DNA of 37,377 nucleotides, from positions 1 through 37,377 of the forward strand of contig NZ_VOHR01000006.1 of NCBI RefSeq assembly GCF_009192725.1. The letters run 5' to 3'. Positions 26,845 through 37,377 of the stretch are shown piece by piece; positions within the stretch are counted from its first letter, which is position 1, and the number at the start of each line of letters is the position of its first letter. Source of the stretch: Segeticoccus rhizosphaerae. Lineage in GTDB: Bacteria > Actinomycetota > Actinomycetes > Actinomycetales > Dermatophilaceae. Below the pieces are notes generated by a model. It saw only the letters and a program-made list of their open reading frames with translations, had not been told where the DNA came from and did not search any database. The translations under genes and the position numbers were made by a program.

Positions 26845-28530
26845 ATGCAGCAGCTCACCGCGATGGACGGGATGTTCTTCAGCGTCGACACCGCGACCTC
26901 GACCGGCGTGATGGGCGGGCTGATCATCTACGACGCCTTCGACGACCCGGCGGCCGGCCGAGCGGAGCGCATGATCGAGCGGATCACCGAACGGCTCGAC
27001 CAGATCCCGCCGTTCCGCCGGGTGCGCGCCAAGGTGCCGCTCGGGCTCGACAAGGAGTACTGGGCCGAGACCGAGGTCGACGTCGCTGCGCACGTCCGGA
27101 CGATCACCCTGGCCGAAGGCGGGACCGACCAGGACCTCGCGGCAGAGATCTCCCGCATCATGAGCATCCGCCTCGACCCCCACCGGCCCCTCTGGGAACT
27201 GTGGATCATCGAGGGCCTGCACGGCGGCCGTCTCGCACACCTGCTGCGGGTGCACCACGGCGCGGTCGACGGCGGGACCATCCCCACGATCCTCGATCTC
27301 CTGTCGGACCACCCGACGACGCCCGCCGACCCGGCCAGCGCGGCCCCGGGCCGGCGCGAGCCCTGGGGAGGGCCGGTCGAGATGCTGGCGCGGGGGGTCG
27401 TGGGGAGGGCCCTCAAGCCCGTCCAGTTCGTCGGGCTGCAGGCGCAGACGGTCAAGTACCTCGTGGGACGACGTTCCGAGGATGGCGTGATGGCCCTGCC
27501 CGCCTTCATCGCGCGGATGATCCCGGGCAAGGTGGGGGCACCGGTCCGGGGCGTCGTCAACCGGCGACAGCGTGCCAAGGGGCAGCCAGAGGTCCTCCCG
27601 GTGCTCCCGCAGGTCACGAAACCAGCCACCCCCTTCAACAGGACGATCACCGACGCCCGGACCTACGCCTTCTCGGACCTGTCGCTCGCCGACTTCAAGC
27701 GGGTCGGCAAGGCCTTCGACGGCACCATGAACGACGCCGTCGTCGCCGTCGTGGCGGGGGCTCTTCGGCGATGGATGGAGGAGCGGGGCGGCGCCCCTGA
27801 GGAGCCGCTGGTCGTGTGCATCCCCTACTCGTTGCGCACCGGGGAGGAGAAGGACCGGTGGGCCAACCACATCAGCATGTTCTTCGCGCCGCTCCCGACC
27901 CACCTCGCCGACCCGGTCGAGCGACTCAAGGCGGTCCACGGCGACCTCAAGGCGGCCAGGAGCAACTTCGACGCCCTGCCCACCGGACTGCTCCGTTCCG
28001 CAAGCCGTTTCATCCCGCAGTCGCTCTTCTGGGTCCACCAGCAGCTGCTGAGCCGCGCGCCCGACTGGGTGTCGGGCTCGATGTGGAACGTCGTGGTCTC
28101 CAACGTCCGCGGCCCGTCGCAGGTCGTGGAGGTCACCGGGGCCCGTATGGCGGGCTACTGGCCGGCCGCGTTCCTCACCACCGGCGTCGGACTCAACATC
28201 ACGCTGCAGAGCTACCTCGACCGGGTGGACTTCGGTTTCATGGGAGCCGGCGACCTCACCGGTGACCTCTGGGAGCTGCCCGGGCACATGAAGGACGCGC
28301 TCGAGGAGCTGATGGAGGCCGCCGACCGCGCCGAGTCCGCGGCGAAGTCCCCGGCCCCGAGAAAGTTGGCCGCAAAGAAGTCGCCGGCCCCGAGAAAGTC
28401 GGCGGCAAAGAAGTCGCCGGCCCCGAGAAAGTCGGCGGCAAAGAAGTCCCCGGCCCCGGGAAAGTCGGCCGCCAGGAAGTCCCCGGCAGCGAAGAAGTCG
28501 GCTGCCAAACCCACCCCCACTGACGACTGA
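26845..28530 (+). CDS. WS/DGAT, second copy, with Lys/Ala/Pro repeat tail
   Basis: Acyltransferase of 561 residues. The catalytic motif is HHGAVDG (137-143), PLWE lies at 115-118, and SNVRGPS and GVGLNITLQSY come late in the domain, which ends near residue 480. After a short helix, residues 501-555 are five tandem 11-residue units of the form KSPAPRKSAAK, then PTPTDD. Most WS/DGATs stop near 460-490 residues. The tail is strongly basic and disordered, like histone H1 or the heparin-binding tail of mycobacterial HBHA, and should bind DNA, polyphosphate or other polyanions (inference). ATG 26845 begins the conserved MQQLTAMDGMFF. The acyl-CoA synthetase follows after 41 bp, supplying acyl-CoA substrate. 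Confidence 0.92.
   Translation: MQQLTAMDGMFFSVDTATSTGVMGGLIIYDAFDDPAAGRAERMIERITERLDQIPPFRRVRAKVPLGLDKEYWAETEVDVAAHVRTITLAEGGTDQDLAAEISRIMSIRLDPHRPLWELWIIEGLHGGRLAHLLRVHHGAVDGGTIPTILDLLSDHPTTPADPASAAPGRREPWGGPVEMLARGVVGRALKPVQFVGLQAQTVKYLVGRRSEDGVMALPAFIARMIPGKVGAPVRGVVNRRQRAKGQPEVLPVLPQVTKPATPFNRTITDARTYAFSDLSLADFKRVGKAFDGTMNDAVVAVVAGALRRWMEERGGAPEEPLVVCIPYSLRTGEEKDRWANHISMFFAPLPTHLADPVERLKAVHGDLKAARSNFDALPTGLLRSASRFIPQSLFWVHQQLLSRAPDWVSGSMWNVVVSNVRGPSQVVEVTGARMAGYWPAAFLTTGVGLNITLQSYLDRVDFGFMGAGDLTGDLWELPGHMKDALEELMEAADRAESAAKSPAPRKLAAKKSPAPRKSAAKKSPAPRKSAAKKSPAPGKSAARKSPAAKKSAAKPTPTDD
28345..28509 (+). repeat. Five tandem 33-bp repeats encoding the basic tail
   Basis: Five in-frame 33-bp units encode KSPAPRK(L/S)AAK, twice KSPAPRKSAAK, KSPAPGKSAAR and KSPAAKKSAAK. 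The central units are nearly identical at the DNA level, while the last two diverge. Copy number is therefore likely to vary among strains by slippage or recombination. Confidence 0.9.
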
Positions 28531-28571: not shown

Positions 28572-30098
28572 GTGTCGTTCAACCTCTCAGTCATCGTTCG
28601 CGAGTCGGCGCAGTCCGGCCCCGACCGCCCGGCCATCATCCACCGTGGTGGCACCATCTCCCACCGTCAGCTCGACGAGTGGAGCGACCGCGTCGCGAGG
28701 GGGCTCGTGCGACTGGGGGTCACGCCGGGAGACAGCGTCGGGGTCCAGCTGCCCAACGTTCCCGAGTTCGCGGCGGTCTTCTACGGCGTCCTCAAGGCCG
28801 GGGCTGTCGCCATCCCGATGAACGTCCTCAACAAGGGCCCGGAGATCGCCTACTTCCTGAAGAACTCTCAGGCAAATCTGTTGATCTCGGCGGCGGGTGT
28901 CGCGAGCGAGGCTGCCCGGGGCGTGAACGAAGCCGGCGCGGAACACCTGTTCATCGTCGGCGACGCCCAGCTGCCCGCCTGTGCGCGGCGCTTCGAGGAG
29001 CTCACCGCCGGTGGTCAGGAGATCCCCGCGCCATTCGTCCAGCGACAGCCCTCTGACACGGCCGTCCTGCTCTACACGTCGGGCACCACCGGTCACCCCA
29101 AGGGGGTCCAGCTGACCCACTTCCAGCTCCTGATGAACGCCGAGGCACACGTCGAGGCCTTCGAGATGGACCGCGACAGCGTCACCATCGCGGTCATGCC
29201 GCTGTTCCACGCTCTCGGCCTGTCGGGCCTGCTCAACGCCACTCTGCGCGCTGGCGGCGCAGTGGTGCTCCTGGAGAAGTTCAAGCCGCTCGACGTCCTG
29301 CAGGCGATCCAGGACCACCACGCCACGATCTTGCACGGCGTCCCGACGATGTACCACGCGATCGAGCACCAGCCGGAGCGGTCCGACTACGACGTCTCCT
29401 CGCTGCGCTACTGCGGTTCCGCGGGCGCGCCCATCGCCGCAGAGCTGCTGGACACCTTCGAGCGCGAGATGGGTGTGCAGATCCTCGAGATGTACGGACT
29501 GACCGAGAGCGGACCACTGGCCAGCTACAACCGACCGGACCACCGCAAGCCGTACAGCATCGGCACGCCCATCTGGGGCACCGAGATGCAGGTTTGGGAC
29601 GACGAGAACACCGAGCTGCCGGCGGGCCGCGACCACGTCGGCGAGCTGGTGATCCGCGGACACAACACCATGGGCGGCTACCTGGACAACCCGGAGGCGA
29701 CCGAGCAGGCCTTCGCCGGCGGCTGGCTGCACAGTGGCGACCTGGGTTACCGCGACGAGGACGGCTTCTTCTTCATCGTGGACCGCAAGAAGGAGATGAT
29801 CATCCGGGGCGGCTACAACGTCTACCCGCGGGAGGTCGAGGAGGTGCTCTACCAGCACCCCGCGATCTTCGAGGCGGCGGTCGTCGGCCTGCCCGACGAC
29901 CGGCTCGGCGAGGAGGTCGGAGCCTTCGTGTCGCTCAAGATCGGCGCCTCGGCCGAGACCGAGGAGATCATCGACTTCGTCAAGGACCGTGTGGCCGCCT
30001 ACAAGTACCCGAGGACGGTCGAGATCCTCCCCGACCTGCCCAAGAGCCCCACCGGCAAGATCCTCAAGCGCCAGCTGGTGCCTGGGCGCAAGGCCTGA
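28572..30098 (+). CDS. Long-chain fatty acid-CoA ligase (acyl-CoA synthetase)
   Basis: Adenylate-forming enzyme of 508 residues that activates fatty acids with ATP and CoA. Motifs in order: P-loop LLYTSGTTGHPKG (about 165-177), YGLTESGP near 307, the hinge GDLGYRDEDGFFFIVDRKKE, IIRGGYNVYPREVEE, and the C-terminal catalytic Lys in SPTGKILKRQL. GTG 28572 has AGGAG at five bases. It is 41 bp downstream of the second WS/DGAT and probably in its operon, feeding acyl-CoA into wax ester or triacylglycerol synthesis, or into the beta-oxidation-like enzymes at 19403-23579. Chain-length preference cannot be read. Confidence 0.9.
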   Translation: MSFNLSVIVRESAQSGPDRPAIIHRGGTISHRQLDEWSDRVARGLVRLGVTPGDSVGVQLPNVPEFAAVFYGVLKAGAVAIPMNVLNKGPEIAYFLKNSQANLLISAAGVASEAARGVNEAGAEHLFIVGDAQLPACARRFEELTAGGQEIPAPFVQRQPSDTAVLLYTSGTTGHPKGVQLTHFQLLMNAEAHVEAFEMDRDSVTIAVMPLFHALGLSGLLNATLRAGGAVVLLEKFKPLDVLQAIQDHHATILHGVPTMYHAIEHQPERSDYDVSSLRYCGSAGAPIAAELLDTFEREMGVQILEMYGLTESGPLASYNRPDHRKPYSIGTPIWGTEMQVWDDENTELPAGRDHVGELVIRGHNTMGGYLDNPEATEQAFAGGWLHSGDLGYRDEDGFFFIVDRKKEMIIRGGYNVYPREVEEVLYQHPAIFEAAVVGLPDDRLGEEVGAFVSLKIGASAETEEIIDFVKDRVAAYKYPRTVEILPDLPKSPTGKILKRQLVPGRKA

Positions 30099-30256: not shown

Positions 30257-31618
30257 ATGTCACAGGTCATCTCTGCCGAGAGTCGGCGCAAGGAGGTGCG
30301 CAAGGTCATCCTCTCGAGCTACTTCGGGACGACGATCGAGTACTACGACTTCCTTCTCTACACCTCGGCCGCCAGCCTGGTCTTCGCCCATGTCTTCTTC
30401 AGCAACCTCTCTGCGGCGACGGGCACCATCCTGTCGTTCGTGACCCTGTTGGCCGGCTACCTGGCGCGGCCGATCGGCGGCATCATCTTCGGCCACTTCG
30501 GCGACCGGCTCGGCCGTCGCAAGATGCTGCTCATCACGATGGGGCTCATGGGGGCGGCCAGCTTCCTGATCGGGTGCGTCCCGTCATACGGCACCTGGGG
30601 CGAGTGGGCACCCGCCACCCTCGTGCTGCTGCGCATCGTGCAGGGGATCGCGGTCGGCGGTGACTGGGGCGGCTCCGCCACCATCAGCGTCGAGGCGGCC
30701 GAGGACGGCAAACGTGGCCTGACGGCCGCGTTCGTCAACATGGGGGCGCCGAGCGGTGCCGTGCTCGGCTCCCTGGTGCTCGCTCTGTTCGCCATGATGG
30801 ACAACTCCGCCTTCCTGCACTGGGGCTGGCGGATTCCCTTCCTGCTCAGCGGTGTCCTGGTCCTCATCGGTCTGTGGATCCGGTGGAGGATGAGCGAGTC
30901 CCCGCTCTTCGAGGAGATGCAGGCCAAGGCGGATGAGCAGGAGAAGAAGGAGACTCCGCTCGTCGCCGTCGTCAAGAACCAGGGGAAAGCGATCATCCTC
31001 GCCGCACTCGGCACGGTGAGCTGCTTTGCGCTGCAGGGGCTCCTTGCCTCTTACGCTCTCACCCTCGGCACCACCGAGGGCGGCCACAGCCGCACCGCGG
31101 TGCTCGTGGCCTTCTCGGTCGCCTCCGTGCTGCAAGTGGGTGCCCTGGCCTTCTACGCCAACCTGTCCGACCGGTTCGGCCGGCGTCCGGTGATGATCTT
31201 CGGCTCTGTCGCCGGCATCGTCCTGGCCTACCCCATCTTCTGGATGATCCAGGATGGCTCGACGTTCCTGCTCTACCTCGGCATGATCCTCGGTATGCCG
31301 GTCGTGCAGGCCGCCGTGTACGGCCCGTCGGCAGCCTTCATCTCCGAGATGTTCCACACCCAGTACCGTTACACCGGAGCGTCACTCGGCTACCAGATCG
31401 CATCCACTCTCGGTGGCGGCGTGTCCCCGCTGGTCGCGGCCAGCCTCGCCGCAGTCGGTGGATTCACCCCGGTCGCTCTCTACGTCGCGGCACTGTTCCT
31501 CGTGGGTGTGTTCATCGTCAAGATCACCCAGGAGGGCACCAAGCTCGACCTGGGCGCCGCAGAGCAGTCGCCGGCGACCAAGACGTCGGACGGGAAGCCC
31601 GACCTGCAGACCGCCTGA
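30257..31618 (+). CDS. MFS transporter, metabolite:H+ symporter (MHS) type
   Basis: Twelve-helix membrane transporter of 453 residues. The N-terminus SSYFGTTIEYYDFLLY and the loop 2-3 motif GHFGDRLGRRKMLL, followed by RIVQGIAVGGDWGG, are typical of the MHS group (ShiA, KgtP, ProP relatives). The second half repeats the MFS loop as DRFGRRPVMIFG. Substrates in this group are small carboxylates, zwitterions or shikimate-like acids, so a mono- or hydroxy-carboxylate related to the catabolic genes here is plausible. ATG 30257 has GGAG upstream. A 158-bp gap separates it from the acyl-CoA synthetase, and I see no clear promoter in that gap. Confidence 0.9.
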   Translation: MSQVISAESRRKEVRKVILSSYFGTTIEYYDFLLYTSAASLVFAHVFFSNLSAATGTILSFVTLLAGYLARPIGGIIFGHFGDRLGRRKMLLITMGLMGAASFLIGCVPSYGTWGEWAPATLVLLRIVQGIAVGGDWGGSATISVEAAEDGKRGLTAAFVNMGAPSGAVLGSLVLALFAMMDNSAFLHWGWRIPFLLSGVLVLIGLWIRWRMSESPLFEEMQAKADEQEKKETPLVAVVKNQGKAIILAALGTVSCFALQGLLASYALTLGTTEGGHSRTAVLVAFSVASVLQVGALAFYANLSDRFGRRPVMIFGSVAGIVLAYPIFWMIQDGSTFLLYLGMILGMPVVQAAVYGPSAAFISEMFHTQYRYTGASLGYQIASTLGGGVSPLVAASLAAVGGFTPVALYVAALFLVGVFIVKITQEGTKLDLGAAEQSPATKTSDGKPDLQTA

Positions 31619-31635
31619 GTGCTGCACACACCGGG

Positions 31636-32364
31636 TCAGGCGCTCCTGGCCGGGTCGGGGTACTGCCCCCGCTCCGGCCGGGAGAACGGTTGCCGATAGG
31701 CGTGCCAGATGTGGGGTGCCTGCCCCAGCCGGTCGGCGACCACGTGCAGTGCGGCCGGGTGGACTCCCATGCCGAGGTGGCTCGAGATGATCTCGACGTT
31801 CTCGGCGCGGGGGCCTCGGGGCTGCAGGCAGCGGTGCCAGTCGAAGACCCCGTCGCTGCGCGAGTAGACGGCGGTGACGGGGACGGGCAACGGTCTCATC
31901 GCGGCGGCCCACCGGGTGGCGTACCACGCGCCGTCGAGCGGGGCGCCGAGCGTGACCAGCAGGCGCACCCGGTCGGGGCGGGCCAGAGCGACCTGGCGGG
32001 CGAACGCACCGCCCACGCTCCAGCCGACGAGCCCCACCGGGCCCTCCTCGTGGGAGATCTGGTCGACGCGGTCGATGAGGGTCTGGACCACCGTCGCGGG
32101 CTTTCCCAGCATCGTGCCCCGGTGCATGCGGTGCGGGGAGTGGCCCAGGGCCCGCAGGTGCGAGCGCATGGCCAGCGTCCACCCGTTGCCGCCGCACAGA
32201 CCGGGAACGGCCAGAACCGGCTGGCCATGGGCCCGCGTGGCCCCCAGGAGGAAGGGAGCCATGAACGGCACCGACGCCAGCTCGATGCTCGCCCGGTAAG
32301 GCTCGAACGGAGCCAGCAGCCACGGGTGCGAGAGCACGCGCTGCATCGAGGGGGCGGTGGGCAC
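31636..32364 (-). CDS. Alpha/beta hydrolase (lipase/esterase-like)
   Basis: Serine hydrolase of 242 residues. The nucleophile elbow is GWSVGG with Ser116. The oxyanion region VPGLCGGNGW lies near 53-62, the probable acid Asp is in YSRSDGVFDW, and the catalytic His is in SSHLGMGVHP. GTG 32364 has GGGAGG at six bases; ATG 32346 is a second choice. Upstream on its strand a TAGGTT -10-like element lies at 32401-32396. Position next to wax ester/triacylglycerol synthesis genes suggests a neutral-lipid or ester hydrolase, but this is inference. It converges with the MFS gene (17 bp gap) and diverges from the 499-residue unknown gene. Confidence 0.85.
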   Translation of the reverse strand: MPTAPSMQRVLSHPWLLAPFEPYRASIELASVPFMAPFLLGATRAHGQPVLAVPGLCGGNGWTLAMRSHLRALGHSPHRMHRGTMLGKPATVVQTLIDRVDQISHEEGPVGLVGWSVGGAFARQVALARPDRVRLLVTLGAPLDGAWYATRWAAAMRPLPVPVTAVYSRSDGVFDWHRCLQPRGPRAENVEIISSHLGMGVHPAALHVVADRLGQAPHIWHAYRQPFSRPERGQYPDPARSA

Positions 32365-32531
32365 GGCGGCCCTCCCATCTGCGGAGAGGGTCCTCAACCT
32401 ACCGGCATCGTGGGCGCGGCCGGCGGACGCCCTGCAGTCGACCTGCCGGACATGAGACAGGACAGCACGAGATCGACGGCACGAACTCGACAACACGGCC
32501 GCCCGGCGGCGGAGGACAAGGAGACACAACC

Positions 32532-34031
32532 ATGGGTGAGGACGGCGTCAACTTCCCCGGCGGCCGGCACGGTCGGAGCAGCACGGAGACCGGGAAGCGG
32601 GTCCTGCGGGCGGCGGTGACCCCGGTCGACGACTCGCTCGCCGACCGATTCGCGAGCGAAGAGAACTGGCGCCGCGGGTATCCCCGCCACTTCGAGGCGC
32701 TCACCGTCCTCGAGGCGGGCTCCGCGGAGACGGCGATGACCGTGGCGCGGGCCGGTCTCGCCGAGGCCGCGCAGAGCTTCGTCCACGTGACCGGCGAGCA
32801 GGAGCACCCACTCGGACACGCGGTGTCGGTCCGCGAGCCGCGACTGTCCACGGTGGAGGTGGTGGGAGGGGGGATCCGACGTCCCGTCCTCGAGGTGCCC
32901 TATCGCGGCGAGCTGCTCACCGGCCACAGGTTGCTCCGCCAGCTGGACGACTGGGTCGGGCGCGGCATCACCGAGCCGTCCTTCCGAGAGGCGGTCGGAT
33001 CGGTCGTGCGCCACCCGGAGTGGCTGGACCTGTCCGATCGCACCTTCGCGCTGGTGGGCGCCGGATCCGCCATGGGGCCGTTGTCCGACCTGCTGGCCTG
33101 GGGTGCGCACGTCGCCGCGATCGACCTGCCTCGTCCGCGGGTCTGGGAGCGGATCGTCCGCACCGCACGCGCCTCGGCCGGGCGGCTGTCGGTTCCGGTG
33201 CGCGGGGGCGGCGCCCCATCAGGCGACGCCCTCGTCGAGCATGCGGGAGCCGACCTGCTGACCGAGGCCGGGGCGGTGGTCGACTGGCTGACGGGGTTGC
33301 CGGGCCCGTTGACGGTGGGCAACTACGGGTATGCCGACGGGGCGCTCTTCGTGCGCCTCACCATGGCCTTCGACACGGTCCTGACGGAGTTGGCGGCGCG
33401 GCGCGACGATCTGTCGCTCGCCTACCTCGCGACCCCGTCGGACGTCTTTCTCGTGCCGTTGGCCGCGGTGCAGGAGTCGCAGCGCCGCCACCGGGCGCTG
33501 CGGCCGTCCCCCTTGGCGGCGCGGGCGGTGCACAGGGCTTCCGGGGGACGGGTGCTGCGACCCAACTTCACCAGCGAAGCCGTCCTGGAGACCGCGGCCG
33601 GCCGATACGGGCTGGTCAACGCCATGATCACCGACCAGGGACAGAACTACGCGCTGGCCAAGCGGTTGCAGCGCTGGCGGCTGATGCTGGCTCGGGCCGA
33701 CGGGATGCTGACGTCGGTGCACGTGGCCCCGCCGACCCGCACGGCGTCCGTGCACTCGAACCCTGTCATGGAGCAGCGCCAGCGGCTGACCGCTCGGCTC
33801 GGCATCGAGACCTTCGACGCCGACACCTCCCGCGCACTGGCCGCAGCCGTCCTCGTGCACGACCTGCGCAACCCCGCCTCAGCGGCCAACCCCGCCGTCC
33901 CGCTCGCGCACCCGCACGAGAGCTTCATGGCTGCGGCGAACCCGGGCGGCCGCTGGCGGGTCCCGCTCGAGCCCGGCAGCGCGCTGCCCGTCCTGGAGTG
34001 GCTCTCCAGGATTCCCGGGATGCATCGGTAG
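32532..34031 (+). CDS. Uncharacterised protein with Rossmann-like motif
   Basis: Protein of 499 residues that I do not recognise. The middle has a dinucleotide-like glycine loop, ALVGAGSAMGPLSDLLAWGAHVAAID (glycines 176, 178, 182; Asp198 after beta2), suggesting NAD(P) or SAM binding. The N-terminal 170 residues include HFEALTVLEAGSAETAMTVAR and EVPYRGELLTGHRLLRQLDDW. The C-terminal third has NFTSEAVLETAAGRYGLVNAMITDQGQNYALAKRLQRWR, followed by VAPPTRTASVHSN. No signal peptide or membrane helix is evident. ATG 32532 has AAGGAG at eight bases. It diverges from an alpha/beta hydrolase across 167 bp and lies beside lipid-storage genes, so a role in fatty aldehyde/alcohol or wax metabolism is one guess, with no direct support. 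Confidence 0.8.
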   Translation: MGEDGVNFPGGRHGRSSTETGKRVLRAAVTPVDDSLADRFASEENWRRGYPRHFEALTVLEAGSAETAMTVARAGLAEAAQSFVHVTGEQEHPLGHAVSVREPRLSTVEVVGGGIRRPVLEVPYRGELLTGHRLLRQLDDWVGRGITEPSFREAVGSVVRHPEWLDLSDRTFALVGAGSAMGPLSDLLAWGAHVAAIDLPRPRVWERIVRTARASAGRLSVPVRGGGAPSGDALVEHAGADLLTEAGAVVDWLTGLPGPLTVGNYGYADGALFVRLTMAFDTVLTELAARRDDLSLAYLATPSDVFLVPLAAVQESQRRHRALRPSPLAARAVHRASGGRVLRPNFTSEAVLETAAGRYGLVNAMITDQGQNYALAKRLQRWRLMLARADGMLTSVHVAPPTRTASVHSNPVMEQRQRLTARLGIETFDADTSRALAAAVLVHDLRNPASAANPAVPLAHPHESFMAAANPGGRWRVPLEPGSALPVLEWLSRIPGMHR

Positions 34032-34070: not shown

Positions 34071-34625
34071 ATGACCGATGTGCCGAACCGACCCCCCGAC
34101 CCGCCGGATGAGCCGGCAGCGGGTGACCCTTACTCCCAGGGCTATCCGCCGGCCCAGGGCCACCCGCCCGTTCCGGCCTACCCAACGGCCCAGGGCTACC
34201 CGCCCCCGCCGCCCGGCTACGGCGCGGCGCCGGTCATGCCCTCGGGCTACGCGGCGCCGTCCGGCCAGGTGGGACACGTGCGGGGCACCGGCCTGTGCAT
34301 CCTGCTGTGCTTCGTCACCCTCGGCATCTACAGCCTCTACTGGTTCTACGTCACCCACGAGGAGATGAAGCGGCACAGCGGCCAGGGCCTCGGCGGCCCG
34401 CTCGCCCTCGTCATCGCGTTCTTCATCGGCATCGTGATGCCCTACCTCACCTCCAACGAGGTCGGCGAGCTCTACGCCCGCCGCGGGCAGCACCCGCCGG
34501 TGAGCGGTTTGACCGGCCTCTGGTACTTCCCCGGTGTGTTCCTCGTGATCGGTCCGATCGTCTGGTTCGTCAAGACCAACAAGGCCCTCAACGCCTACTG
34601 GCGATCGCTGGGGGCCGTGGGCTGA
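34071..34625 (+). CDS. DUF4234 membrane protein with Pro/Gly/Tyr-rich N-terminus
   Basis: Protein of 184 residues. Residues 1-65 are disordered, rich in Pro, Gly and Tyr with repeated QGYPP/QGHPP-type units. The rest is a DUF4234-like domain: RGTGLCILLCFVTLGIYSLYWFY (first helix), a second helix near LALVIAFFIGIVMPYL, and a third ending WFVKTNKALNAYW. The function of the domain is unknown. Pro/Tyr-rich cytoplasmic tails of this sort are common on actinobacterial membrane proteins and may mediate self-association (inference). It is followed by a promoter/hairpin region and mrpA. Confidence 0.85.
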   Translation: MTDVPNRPPDPPDEPAAGDPYSQGYPPAQGHPPVPAYPTAQGYPPPPPGYGAAPVMPSGYAAPSGQVGHVRGTGLCILLCFVTLGIYSLYWFYVTHEEMKRHSGQGLGGPLALVIAFFIGIVMPYLTSNEVGELYARRGQHPPVSGLTGLWYFPGVFLVIGPIVWFVKTNKALNAYWRSLGAVG

Positions 34626-34700: not shown

Positions 34701-34771
34701 TCGTGTTGTTTGTCGGTGGGTGACGCCGCGAATCCGACGCCGCTCGGCCACGACGAACACGAGGAGTGGAG

Positions 34772-37377
34772 ATGATCACGCTCCTCGTCGCCCACGTCGT
34801 CCTCGCCGCGGCGGCACCAGCTCTCGTCCGCTGGTGGGGGAGCCGGGCGTTCATCGTCCTGGCGGCGCCGCCTGCCGCGGCCGCAGTATGGGCGCTCACC
34901 CAGACGTCGACCGTCCTGGCCGGACGCCCACCGACCTTCCGCGCCGACTGGGTGCCATCGCTCGGCATGCAGCTGTCCTTCCGGCTGGACACCCTGTCCT
35001 GGCTGCTCACCCTCGTGGTCGGCGCGATCGGGGCGCTGGTCCTGCTCTACTGCGCGCACTACTTCGAGGACGACGAGCCGGGCCTCGGCGGCTTCGCGGC
35101 ATCGCTGACCGGTTTCGCCGGGGCCATGCTCGGGCTGGTGACCAGCGACGACCTGCTGGTGCTCTACGTGTTCTGGGAGCTGACCACGGTCCTGTCCTAC
35201 CTGCTGATCGGCCACCGGGCGGGCAGCTCGGTCAGCAGGTCGGCGGCCACCCAGGCCCTCGTCGTCACGACCGCCGGTGGGCTCGCCATGCTCGTGGGCA
35301 TCGTGCTGCTCGGCCAGGACGCCGGCACCTACCGGATCTCCGAGCTGGTCGCCGACCCGCCCACAGGACCGCTGGCGACCGCCGCGGTGGTCCTGCTGCT
35401 CCTCGGCGCGGTGAGCAAGTCCGCGCTGGTGCCGTTCCACTTCTGGCTGCCCGGTGCGATGGCCGCGCCGACTCCCGTGAGCGCCTACCTGCACGCCGCC
35501 GCGATGGTCAAGGCCGGGGTCTACCTCGTGGCACGCCTGGCCCCGGCCTTCAGCGACGTGCCGCTCTGGCGCCTGGTGGTGCTCGTGCTCGGCGGTGCCA
35601 CCATGCTGATCGGCGGCTGGCGGTCGCTGCGCCAGCACGACCTCAAGCTGCTGCTCGCCTACGGCACCGTCAGCCAGCTGGGCTACCTGACCATCCTGGC
35701 CGGTTACGGCACCCGGGTAGCCGCGCTGGCGGCGCTGACCGTCCTGGTGGGCCACGCGTTGTTCAAGTCATGCCTGTTCCTGGTCGTCGGCACGATCGAC
35801 CACAGTGCGCACACGCGTGACGTGCGGGAGCTGTCGGGGCTCGGGCGCCGTATGCCTTGGCTCGCCGGGACCGCGGTGGTCGCTGCCGCGTCCATGGTCG
35901 GGTTGCCCCCGATGATCGGCTTCGTGGGCAAGGAGACCGCATACACCTCCATGCTGCCCGGGCACGGGGCCGGACCGGATGGCGACTGGCCGGTCCTCGT
36001 GGTCCTGGTGGCGGGGTCCGTGCTCACCTTCGCCTACGGCGCGCGATTTTGCTGGGGCGCCTTCCGGTCGGTGCGCGGCCGGGCGCCGACCCCGCTGCAC
36101 CGGCCGGCCGGGCTCCTGGTGGGAGTGCCGGTGCTGCTCGCGGCCGCCGGTGTGGTGGCCGGCGCCCTGTCCGGGCTCGGCGAACGCTACCTGCACGCCT
36201 ACACCGAGGCGTGGCCGCAGGCCCGGCACACGGTGCACCTGGGCCTGTGGCACGGACTGTCGACGCAGCTGCTGCTGTCCGCCGTCACCGTCGCGCTCGG
36301 GGCTGCGCTGTTCTGGCAGCGGTCACGCGTCGAGGTGCTGCAACGGACCGCGCCTGCGGTTCCCAGCGCGGACGCCGCCTACCGCGGTCTGATGCGTGGA
36401 CTCGACCGGGCCTCACTGGAGGTCACCGGGGCGTTCCAGCGCGGCTCGCTCCCGCTCTCTCTCGGCCTGATCCTGCTGGTGCTGGTCGTCCTTCCGGCCG
36501 TGGGCCTGGCCGGCGCCGCCTGGCCCGATCAGATCCGCTGGGGGGACAGCCCGGTTCAGGTGGCCGTGGCGGTCGTCATCGCGGCGGCCGCCTTCTTCAC
36601 CACCCGGGCCCGGCGCCGGCTGCGCGCGGTCTTCCTCGTGAGCGTGACCGGCTACGGCACCGCGATGCTGTTCCTGCTGCACGGCGCCCCGGACCTCGCG
36701 CTCACCCAGGTGCTCGTCGAGACCGTGTCCATCGTGGTCTTCGTCCTGGTGCTCCGGCGACTGTCGGGCAAGTTCAACGACGACCCCAGCCTGCGGACCC
36801 GGCGGCTGCGGGGCCTGCTCGGCGTCGGCGTCGGCGTGGTCACGACCTGCATGGCCCTCGTCGCGGTGGCGGCGCGCACCGCCGAGCCCATGACGGCCGA
36901 GTTTGCCAAGGGCGCAGTGGAGTTCGGCGGTGGCAACAACATCGTCAACGTGACCCTCGTGGACATCCGGGCCTGGGACACCATGGGGGAGCTGTCCGTG
37001 GTCCTGGTCGCCGCGACCGGGGTGGCAAGCCTGATCTTCCTGCGCGAGGACGCCCTCTCGGTGAGCCGGCGCCTCGTTGCCAACGCCCGGTCCCTGCGTC
37101 GCACGCACGCCTCGCTCGGCGGCAACGAGGGCAGCCCCTGGCTCGCCGAGGGTTCGGCGATGCCTCCGGAACGGCGCTCGGTGCTCTTCGAGGTGGTCAC
37201 CCGGCTGATCTTCCACACCATCATCCTGTGGTCCCTCTACCTGCTCTTCTCCGGCCACAACCACCCCGGCGGCGGTTTCGCGGCCGGGCTGGTCGCCGGT
37301 CTCGCGCTCGCCGTCCGCTACCTGGCCGGCGAGCGCGACGAGCTGCGCGCCGCCGCGCCGATCATGCCCGGCCTGCT
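34772..37377 (+). CDS. mrpA: Na+/H+ antiporter subunit A (MrpA-type), 3' end outside window
   Basis: The frame is open from ATG 34772 (GGAG close upstream) to the window end, 868 codons without a stop. It is a NuoL/MrpA-like multi-span proton-translocating subunit. Landmarks are LVLYVFWELTTVLSYLLIGH with the conserved Glu, and SKSALVPFHFWLPGAMAAPTPVSAYLHAAAMVKAGVYL with the conserved Lys and His. Near the window end FSGHNHPGGGFAAGLVAGL matches an MrpB-type domain fused at the C-terminus, as is usual for long MrpA. The rest of an mrp operon should follow. It exports Na+ against H+ for pH and salt homeostasis. The alternative, a respiratory complex I subunit, is disfavoured by the MrpB part. 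Confidence 0.93.
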   Translation, partial: MITLLVAHVVLAAAAPALVRWWGSRAFIVLAAPPAAAAVWALTQTSTVLAGRPPTFRADWVPSLGMQLSFRLDTLSWLLTLVVGAIGALVLLYCAHYFEDDEPGLGGFAASLTGFAGAMLGLVTSDDLLVLYVFWELTTVLSYLLIGHRAGSSVSRSAATQALVVTTAGGLAMLVGIVLLGQDAGTYRISELVADPPTGPLATAAVVLLLLGAVSKSALVPFHFWLPGAMAAPTPVSAYLHAAAMVKAGVYLVARLAPAFSDVPLWRLVVLVLGGATMLIGGWRSLRQHDLKLLLAYGTVSQLGYLTILAGYGTRVAALAALTVLVGHALFKSCLFLVVGTIDHSAHTRDVRELSGLGRRMPWLAGTAVVAAASMVGLPPMIGFVGKETAYTSMLPGHGAGPDGDWPVLVVLVAGSVLTFAYGARFCWGAFRSVRGRAPTPLHRPAGLLVGVPVLLAAAGVVAGALSGLGERYLHAYTEAWPQARHTVHLGLWHGLSTQLLLSAVTVALGAALFWQRSRVEVLQRTAPAVPSADAAYRGLMRGLDRASLEVTGAFQRGSLPLSLGLILLVLVVLPAVGLAGAAWPDQIRWGDSPVQVAVAVVIAAAAFFTTRARRRLRAVFLVSVTGYGTAMLFLLHGAPDLALTQVLVETVSIVVFVLVLRRLSGKFNDDPSLRTRRLRGLLGVGVGVVTTCMALVAVAARTAEPMTAEFAKGAVEFGGGNNIVNVTLVDIRAWDTMGELSVVLVAATGVASLIFLREDALSVSRRLVANARSLRRTHASLGGNEGSPWLAEGSAMPPERRSVLFEVVTRLIFHTIILWSLYLLFSGHNHPGGGFAAGLVAGLALAVRYLAGERDELRAAAPIMPGL

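Follow-up and report, generated by a model that had tools for sequence, protein, structure and literature searches.

What does the gene at positions 32532-34031 of a Segeticoccus rhizosphaerae contig (NZ_VOHR01000006.1) encode, and has its product to do with the wax ester and triacylglycerol (TAG) genes nearby? We call the stretch analysed, 37,377 nucleotides long, the window, and the gene product (P0001) the window protein. The gene is genuine, and the window protein appears from structure prediction to represent a real, widespread and unnamed family of oxidoreductases with the short-chain dehydrogenase/reductase (SDR) fold, to which we give a probability of roughly 0.85. The fuller statement, that these enzymes most likely act on lipid-derived carbonyls in bacteria encoding the wax ester synthase/diacylglycerol acyltransferase WS/DGAT, we put at about 0.5 as a whole.

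Two features define the gene:
32532-34031, + strand: gene of the 499-residue protein with predicted SDR fold (open reading frame, model and homologues)
32518-32523, + strand: Shine-Dalgarno-like AAGGAG, 8 nt before the ATG, read from the sequence

Direct translation yields 499 amino acids with zero internal stops, and GC content by codon position (0.747/0.539/0.912, in a window of 70.5% GC) follows the pattern of real genes. The length of an open reading frame is no proof of a gene here, antisense frames of 400-489 amino acids also occurring; we accept this one because many genera have relatives that are 33-55% identical to it along almost the entire length. An earlier note on this DNA, made from the sequence alone, had called it a well-supported 499-residue gene, and ribosome-binding site, codon-position GC and relatives all agree with that. 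The genome has one copy. Scans with Rfam and for promoters and terminators gave nothing useful.

The earlier note could name no family, nor do the libraries: searches of Pfam, NCBIfam, PHROGs and PDB sequences with the window protein gave no match, and on this ground a family that is characterised or has a housekeeping role was rejected. A profile of 21 members found nothing significant among PDB sequences. Searched individually, 21 members gave only stray Pfam matches, with no SDR model among them, and 46 members only stray NCBIfam matches, one of them to a 3-oxoacyl-acyl carrier protein (ACP) reductase model (E 2.9e-4). The open-access literature searched, judged from search listings, yielded no paper on the family, and full-text searches with family peptide strings were also fruitless; where annotation was seen, it read hypothetical protein.

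Relatives occur in 108 of the 186 genomes of the window's own taxonomic family (36 of 53 genera), in 14/149 genomes of its order, and in 26/396 genomes of a phylum sample (24 after two weak partial matches are dropped). Among wider genome contigs at least 531 of 590 pattern matches encode a relative; these came from an alignment-based search, a single-protein query having been unproductive. The best 80 were kept as named loci, so the list of taxa is biased; among those in it are Acinetobacter, Myxococcus/Pyxidicoccus, Nitriliruptorales, Nanopelagicales, Geodermatophilus, Nocardioides, Phycicoccus and two Chloroflexi metagenome-assembled genomes (MAGs). A quick tree of 42 proteins places Acinetobacter in a single clade (support 100) inside a group that also contains the sequences from Myxococcaceae and MAGs (98); the partner of the window protein is that of locus L015 (99; 55% identity). 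L015 and another locus, L042, appear to come from one genome (equal WS/DGAT count and best score). By sequence comparison, then, this is a large conserved family without a name, spread across many bacterial lineages.

The predicted structure divides the protein as follows:
32532-33011, + strand: N-terminal domain, residues 1-160, helices and small strands (model; no PDB fold match)
33024-33971, + strand: SDR-like core, residues about 165-480 (model and structural alignment)
33444-33629, + strand: insertion, residues 305-366, from beta5 to the catalytic helix, longer than in classical SDRs (model and hhalign)

An AlphaFold2 model built from 46 sequences has a mean predicted local distance difference test score (pLDDT) of 95.2 and a predicted template modelling score (pTM) of 0.93. 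The core is called SDR-like because of its structural matches to ketoacyl-reductase domains of fatty acid synthases (FAS) and to classical SDRs. In VIA-align the top match is the ketoacyl-reductase domain of a fungal FAS (9d4a_B, Z 20.3, root-mean-square deviation (rmsd) 3.8, 298 aligned residues, 13% identity), and fungal FAS chains fill the first 23 places by Z; a mycobacterial FAS (4v8w_D) has Z 17.0, rmsd 3.6 and 255 aligned. The best classical SDR (1h5q_A, Z 17.5, rmsd 2.5) aligns 226 residues within 160-477 of the model, and the SDR chains listed (Z 16.7-17.5, rmsd 2.5-4.0, 212-244 residues aligned) match it as a Rossmann-type SDR core. Foldseek with the full model against the PDB gave a best E of 3e-5, again to a FAS ketoacyl reductase; a viral fold library gave nothing useful. 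The N-terminal domain has W46, R47, G75, G112 and W141 in 46/46 aligned rows, and the first 165 residues folded alone reach pLDDT 90.8 and pTM 0.60. Alone against the PDB it found nothing convincing (Foldseek best E 1.7; best Z 4.6 among 24 chains realigned). The model thus describes a protein with an N-terminal domain of its own kind joined to an SDR core. The profile and AlphaFold/Foldseek checks proposed in the earlier note have in this way returned no library family and a predicted SDR-like fold closest to the FAS ketoacyl reductases.

Six sites in the core bear on function; conservation was counted over 46 aligned family proteins:
33057-33077, + strand: GAGSAMG, residues 176-182, predicted dinucleotide-binding loop, beta1-alpha1 (sequence, model and hhalign)
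33123-33125, + strand: D198, end of beta2, 45/46
33432-33443, + strand: T301-P302-S303-D304, end of predicted beta5, probable place of the SDR catalytic Ser
33648-33662, + strand: Y373-A-L-A-K377, SDR catalytic YxxxK, 46/46, in helix 371-389 of the model
33729-33743, + strand: P400-T404, following beta6 and matched to the SDR P...T motif, P400 and T404 46/46
33768-34007, + strand: residues 413-492, predicted substrate lobe, altered in both the window protein and L015, its sister

G176 and A177 of the loop are found in 46/46 proteins, G178 in 38/46 and G182 in 39/46; the family form is GAG[AS]EMGP. The Rossmann-like glycine motif picked out in the earlier note would accordingly be the dinucleotide loop of the SDR-like core, and its suggestion of an enzyme gains from the predicted fold with an invariant YxxxK. 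D198, standing at the end of beta2, we take to signal that NAD(H) is preferred over NADP(H). Residue 301 is T in 45/46 and S in 1/46, with P302 and D304 in 46/46, and T301 probably corresponds by position in the model to the SDR catalytic Ser. Position 273, a candidate for the catalytic Asn in alpha4, varies among H, N and F in the 46 rows. In a profile comparison, hhalign of the family with 15 SDRs from the collected loci matched beta1-alpha1-beta2 (residues 165-201) at P 4.2e-5 and a probability of 70%, and a second colinear piece, weak alone (P 0.38), put Y373/K377 on the SDR YxxxK and P400-T404 on P...T. With ten control families P ranged from 0.0041, for an FAD reductase that is itself a dinucleotide binder, to 0.78.

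The same alignment bears on whether the window protein still works as an enzyme. It departs from family residues conserved at 85% or more at 19 positions and one insertion column, being off consensus at E180, D363, P371, H471 and R482 among others; this could mean that catalysis has been lost and that the protein is a binding or structural one, for example on lipid bodies. We regard that as very unlikely, given that Y373, K377 and T/S301 are retained in 46/46 proteins, the window protein included. Most of the departures at 413-492 are also found in L015. SDRs bind substrate in the stretch after the P...T motif. As this predicted lobe is altered at many conserved sites, the window's clade, whose gene stands beside WS/DGAT and acyl-CoA ligase genes, may have a substrate of its own.

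The high rank of the FAS chains raises the possibility that the protein reduces 3-ketoacyl groups (on CoA or ACP) and is, in function, a stand-alone analogue of the ketoreductase domain of FAS-I. The fungal domains (9d4a, 9d48, 4v58) have the SDR core in common with the family and the highest structural scores, one member touches the NCBIfam FabG model, and acyl-CoA dehydrogenase and MaoC genes adjoin the sister gene in L042. The window protein is nevertheless a free-standing 499-residue chain with its own N-terminal domain, 13% identical to a domain that is part of a multienzyme chain, and among the chains compared this N-terminal domain alone matches no part of a FAS; a long FAS chain may also merely permit more aligned residues. 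Nor did hhalign and hmmsearch against four actinobacterial FAS-I proteins detect significant homology in the ketoreductase, the best match (P 0.013) lying by position beyond its range. On balance we rate the ketoacyl reductase as rather improbable. Actinobacterial FAS-I residues near 2452-2562 (L152-L154) carry P-x-W-x2-LD-V...VGGAE-GPY, which resembles the family's PEWLDL...GAGAEMGP at a level that is not significant.

The proposal of a role in neutral lipids comes from the distribution of the family. In the phylum sample WS/DGAT is encoded by 20/24 carriers of the gene and by 122/372 other genomes (Fisher P 1.2e-6), and in the window's taxonomic family WS/DGAT (PF03007) occurs in 104/108 carriers vs 52/78 non-carriers. 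A set of 26 genomes, drawn from the 80 named loci so as to be diverse, has it in 24, with Acinetobacter, Myxococcaceae, a Chloroflexi MAG and Nanopelagicales-like genomes of 1.5-2.4 Mb represented. Carriers nearly always encode WS/DGAT; the reverse does not hold.

On the proposed mechanism, the SDR core would bind NAD(H), the likelier cofactor, at the GAG[AS]EMGP loop, and Y373, K377 and probably T301 would move hydride between the cofactor and a carbonyl or alcohol substrate. The enzyme would likely serve wax ester or TAG metabolism by reducing an acyl-derived aldehyde or ketone, both substrate and direction being our suggestion. With classical SDRs such as FabG (PF00106, adh_short) the family has in common beta1-alpha1-beta2, YxxxK and P...T after beta6, with Z up to 17.5. 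It differs from them in that Thr apparently stands for Ser after beta5, about 60 residues are inserted before the catalytic helix and 160 are added at the N-terminus.

Several observations weigh against an SDR acting on lipid-derived carbonyls. The glycine loop reads GAG[AS]EMGP where classical SDRs have TGxxxGxG, and, within a family that lacks any Pfam match, adh_short matches neither the window protein (E up to 10) nor 21 members (E up to 1). As to distribution, Fisher tests ignore relatedness, and without one large phylogenetic block, genus g101 (to which ten unlisted non-carrier genomes were assigned from listing order), the counts in the window's taxonomic family become 104/108 vs 41/47 (P 0.07). 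Of 115 genomes in the order centred on an Acinetobacter genome, 47 have WS/DGAT and one, that central genome, has the gene. The sample of its genus has WS/DGAT in 98/99 genomes, including 10 of the 11 that lack the gene, several of which are small or incomplete; as a test of dependence on WS/DGAT within a genus this is uninformative to negative. WS/DGAT lies within 6.5 kb of the gene in 2/121 loci besides the window, L042 and L092, flanks being only 1.5 kb in about 40 of the 121. Finally, the neighbours in Nanopelagicales suggest aromatic or amine catabolism instead.

Those neighbours invite the reading that the protein is an SDR acting on aromatic aldehydes, on aldehydes derived from amines or on other xenobiotic carbonyls, its link with WS/DGAT reflecting lifestyle only. 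Nanopelagicales-type loci have the gene after a ferredoxin-NAD reductase gene (18 loci in the cluster) and a group-II pyridoxal phosphate decarboxylase gene (14 loci in the cluster, not each checked, several with the genes about 20 bp apart), and around it are a thiamine pyrophosphate enzyme, an HpaD-like dioxygenase, an HpaE-like dehydrogenase, a fumarylacetoacetate (FAA) hydrolase and a P450. None of the other lineages looked at showed these surroundings, however, and the reading leaves WS/DGAT in 24/26 carriers unexplained; we hold it to be unlikely. Elsewhere the surroundings differ: Phycicoccus/Pedococcus-type loci have a universal stress protein gene next, on the opposite strand (11 loci), and no neighbour conserved across lineages was found, every lineage having its own set. 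The contexts argue for reductase chemistry in places, not for a single pathway.

If the SDR-fold enzyme does act on lipid-derived carbonyls, a specific place for it would be that of fatty-aldehyde reductase (FALDR) in a two-enzyme wax route, in which Acr1 makes the aldehyde, the protein reduces it to the alcohol and WS/DGAT esterifies the alcohol. It counts against this that TAG, not wax, may be the product of most Actinobacteria that carry the gene, which would then not need the aldehyde step. Fatty aldehydes can, moreover, be reduced by many other dehydrogenases, and WS/DGAT is kept in those 10 of 11 Acinetobacter-genus genomes that lack the gene. Consistent with such a role, the structural and profile comparisons indicate a reductase of SDR type, and the gene is nearly genus-wide around Acinetobacter (88/99) and lacking in the other 46 genomes with WS/DGAT that were sampled from that order; one-step reductases may serve in some of these. 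Acr1, the Acinetobacter fatty acyl-CoA reductase that catalyses the preceding step from acyl-CoA to aldehyde, has genus and wax-ester context in common with the family and is also described as an SDR in a passage of PMC11948995. FarA/AcrB and FcrA likewise supply WS/DGAT with alcohols, as one-step four-electron fatty acyl-CoA reductases, FcrA being a homologue of HMG-CoA reductase according to the same passage. The step from aldehyde to alcohol in the Acr1-type pathway is termed 'unknown' or 'uncharacterized' in passages of PMC11948995, PMC5806253 and PMC7251950. We consider it unlikely that the window protein fills this place, the boldest of the readings, and similarly unlikely that the family across Actinomycetota, Acinetobacter and Myxococcaceae is the missing FALDR, with the window's clade as a version with a remodelled substrate lobe.

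The family matters as an enzyme-like, conserved one in hundreds of genomes, including Acinetobacter baumannii, for which the Pfam and NCBIfam searches turned up no dedicated model. With its predicted fold and its invariant residues it is a candidate oxidoreductase that can be assayed. Its near-restriction to WS/DGAT carriers makes it a concrete candidate for the gap in bacterial wax synthesis, still described as such in passages of papers of 2018-2025, and a role there, if true, would be of use for oleochemical engineering.

The window itself places the gene among these neighbours:
26845-28530, + strand: WS/DGAT (TIGR02946, PF03007), upstream of the gene
28572-30098, + strand: long-chain acyl-CoA ligase-like protein (AMP-binding), upstream of the gene
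30257-31618, + strand: metabolite/H+ symporter-like protein of the major facilitator superfamily (MFS), between the ligase and hydrolase genes
31636-32529, - strand: divergent alpha/beta hydrolase, open reading frame from TTG, real start probably nearer 32346
34071-34625: DUF4234 small membrane protein with proline-rich N-terminus, downstream of the gene

The gene thus diverges from a hydrolase and lies near wax ester/TAG genes, as the earlier note had it, with the MFS gene between. We rejected an operon that would join the gene to its MFS, hydrolase or DUF4234 neighbours, for related loci do not retain these (one distant MFS, L111). In L042, the sister, WS/DGAT and acyl-CoA ligase genes lie upstream as in the window, their products 50% and 58% identical; in L092 a LigD primase gene separates the gene from WS/DGAT, and the linkage is probably accidental. 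Apart from that case, only the small clade of the window protein has the two genes physically linked. The gene-neighbourhood check that had been proposed therefore upholds the link to WS/DGAT in part: genome-level co-occurrence is strong and one-way, whereas adjacency does not extend beyond the window and one sister genome, the one further case apart.

Some records carrying the gene need comment. A phage or mobile origin was rejected, the sole matches in a phage collection being two 115-kb Acinetobacter records, CAKLQH020000010.1 and CAKLQF020000014.1, that are labelled Acinetobacter phage MD-2021a and look like bacterial chromosome contigs. A plasmid origin was likewise rejected: six 'plasmid' records with the gene are from A. 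baumannii, and several are chromosome-sized. Four MAGs titled Bifidobacterium breve (L048, L056, L065, L081) have Nanopelagicales-like loci; the titles look wrong, since in addition L056 clusters with Nanopelagicales in the tree. One Acinetobacter-genus genome (G1000) has, in addition to one intact copy, a second copy split over three open frames (C1:3047505-3048999), either a decaying duplicate or a sequencing error. At the window's end, positions 34766-37375 encode a Mrp-type Na+/H+ antiporter subunit, MnhA/B-like and containing MbhD and MbhE domains, whose gene the contig end truncates.
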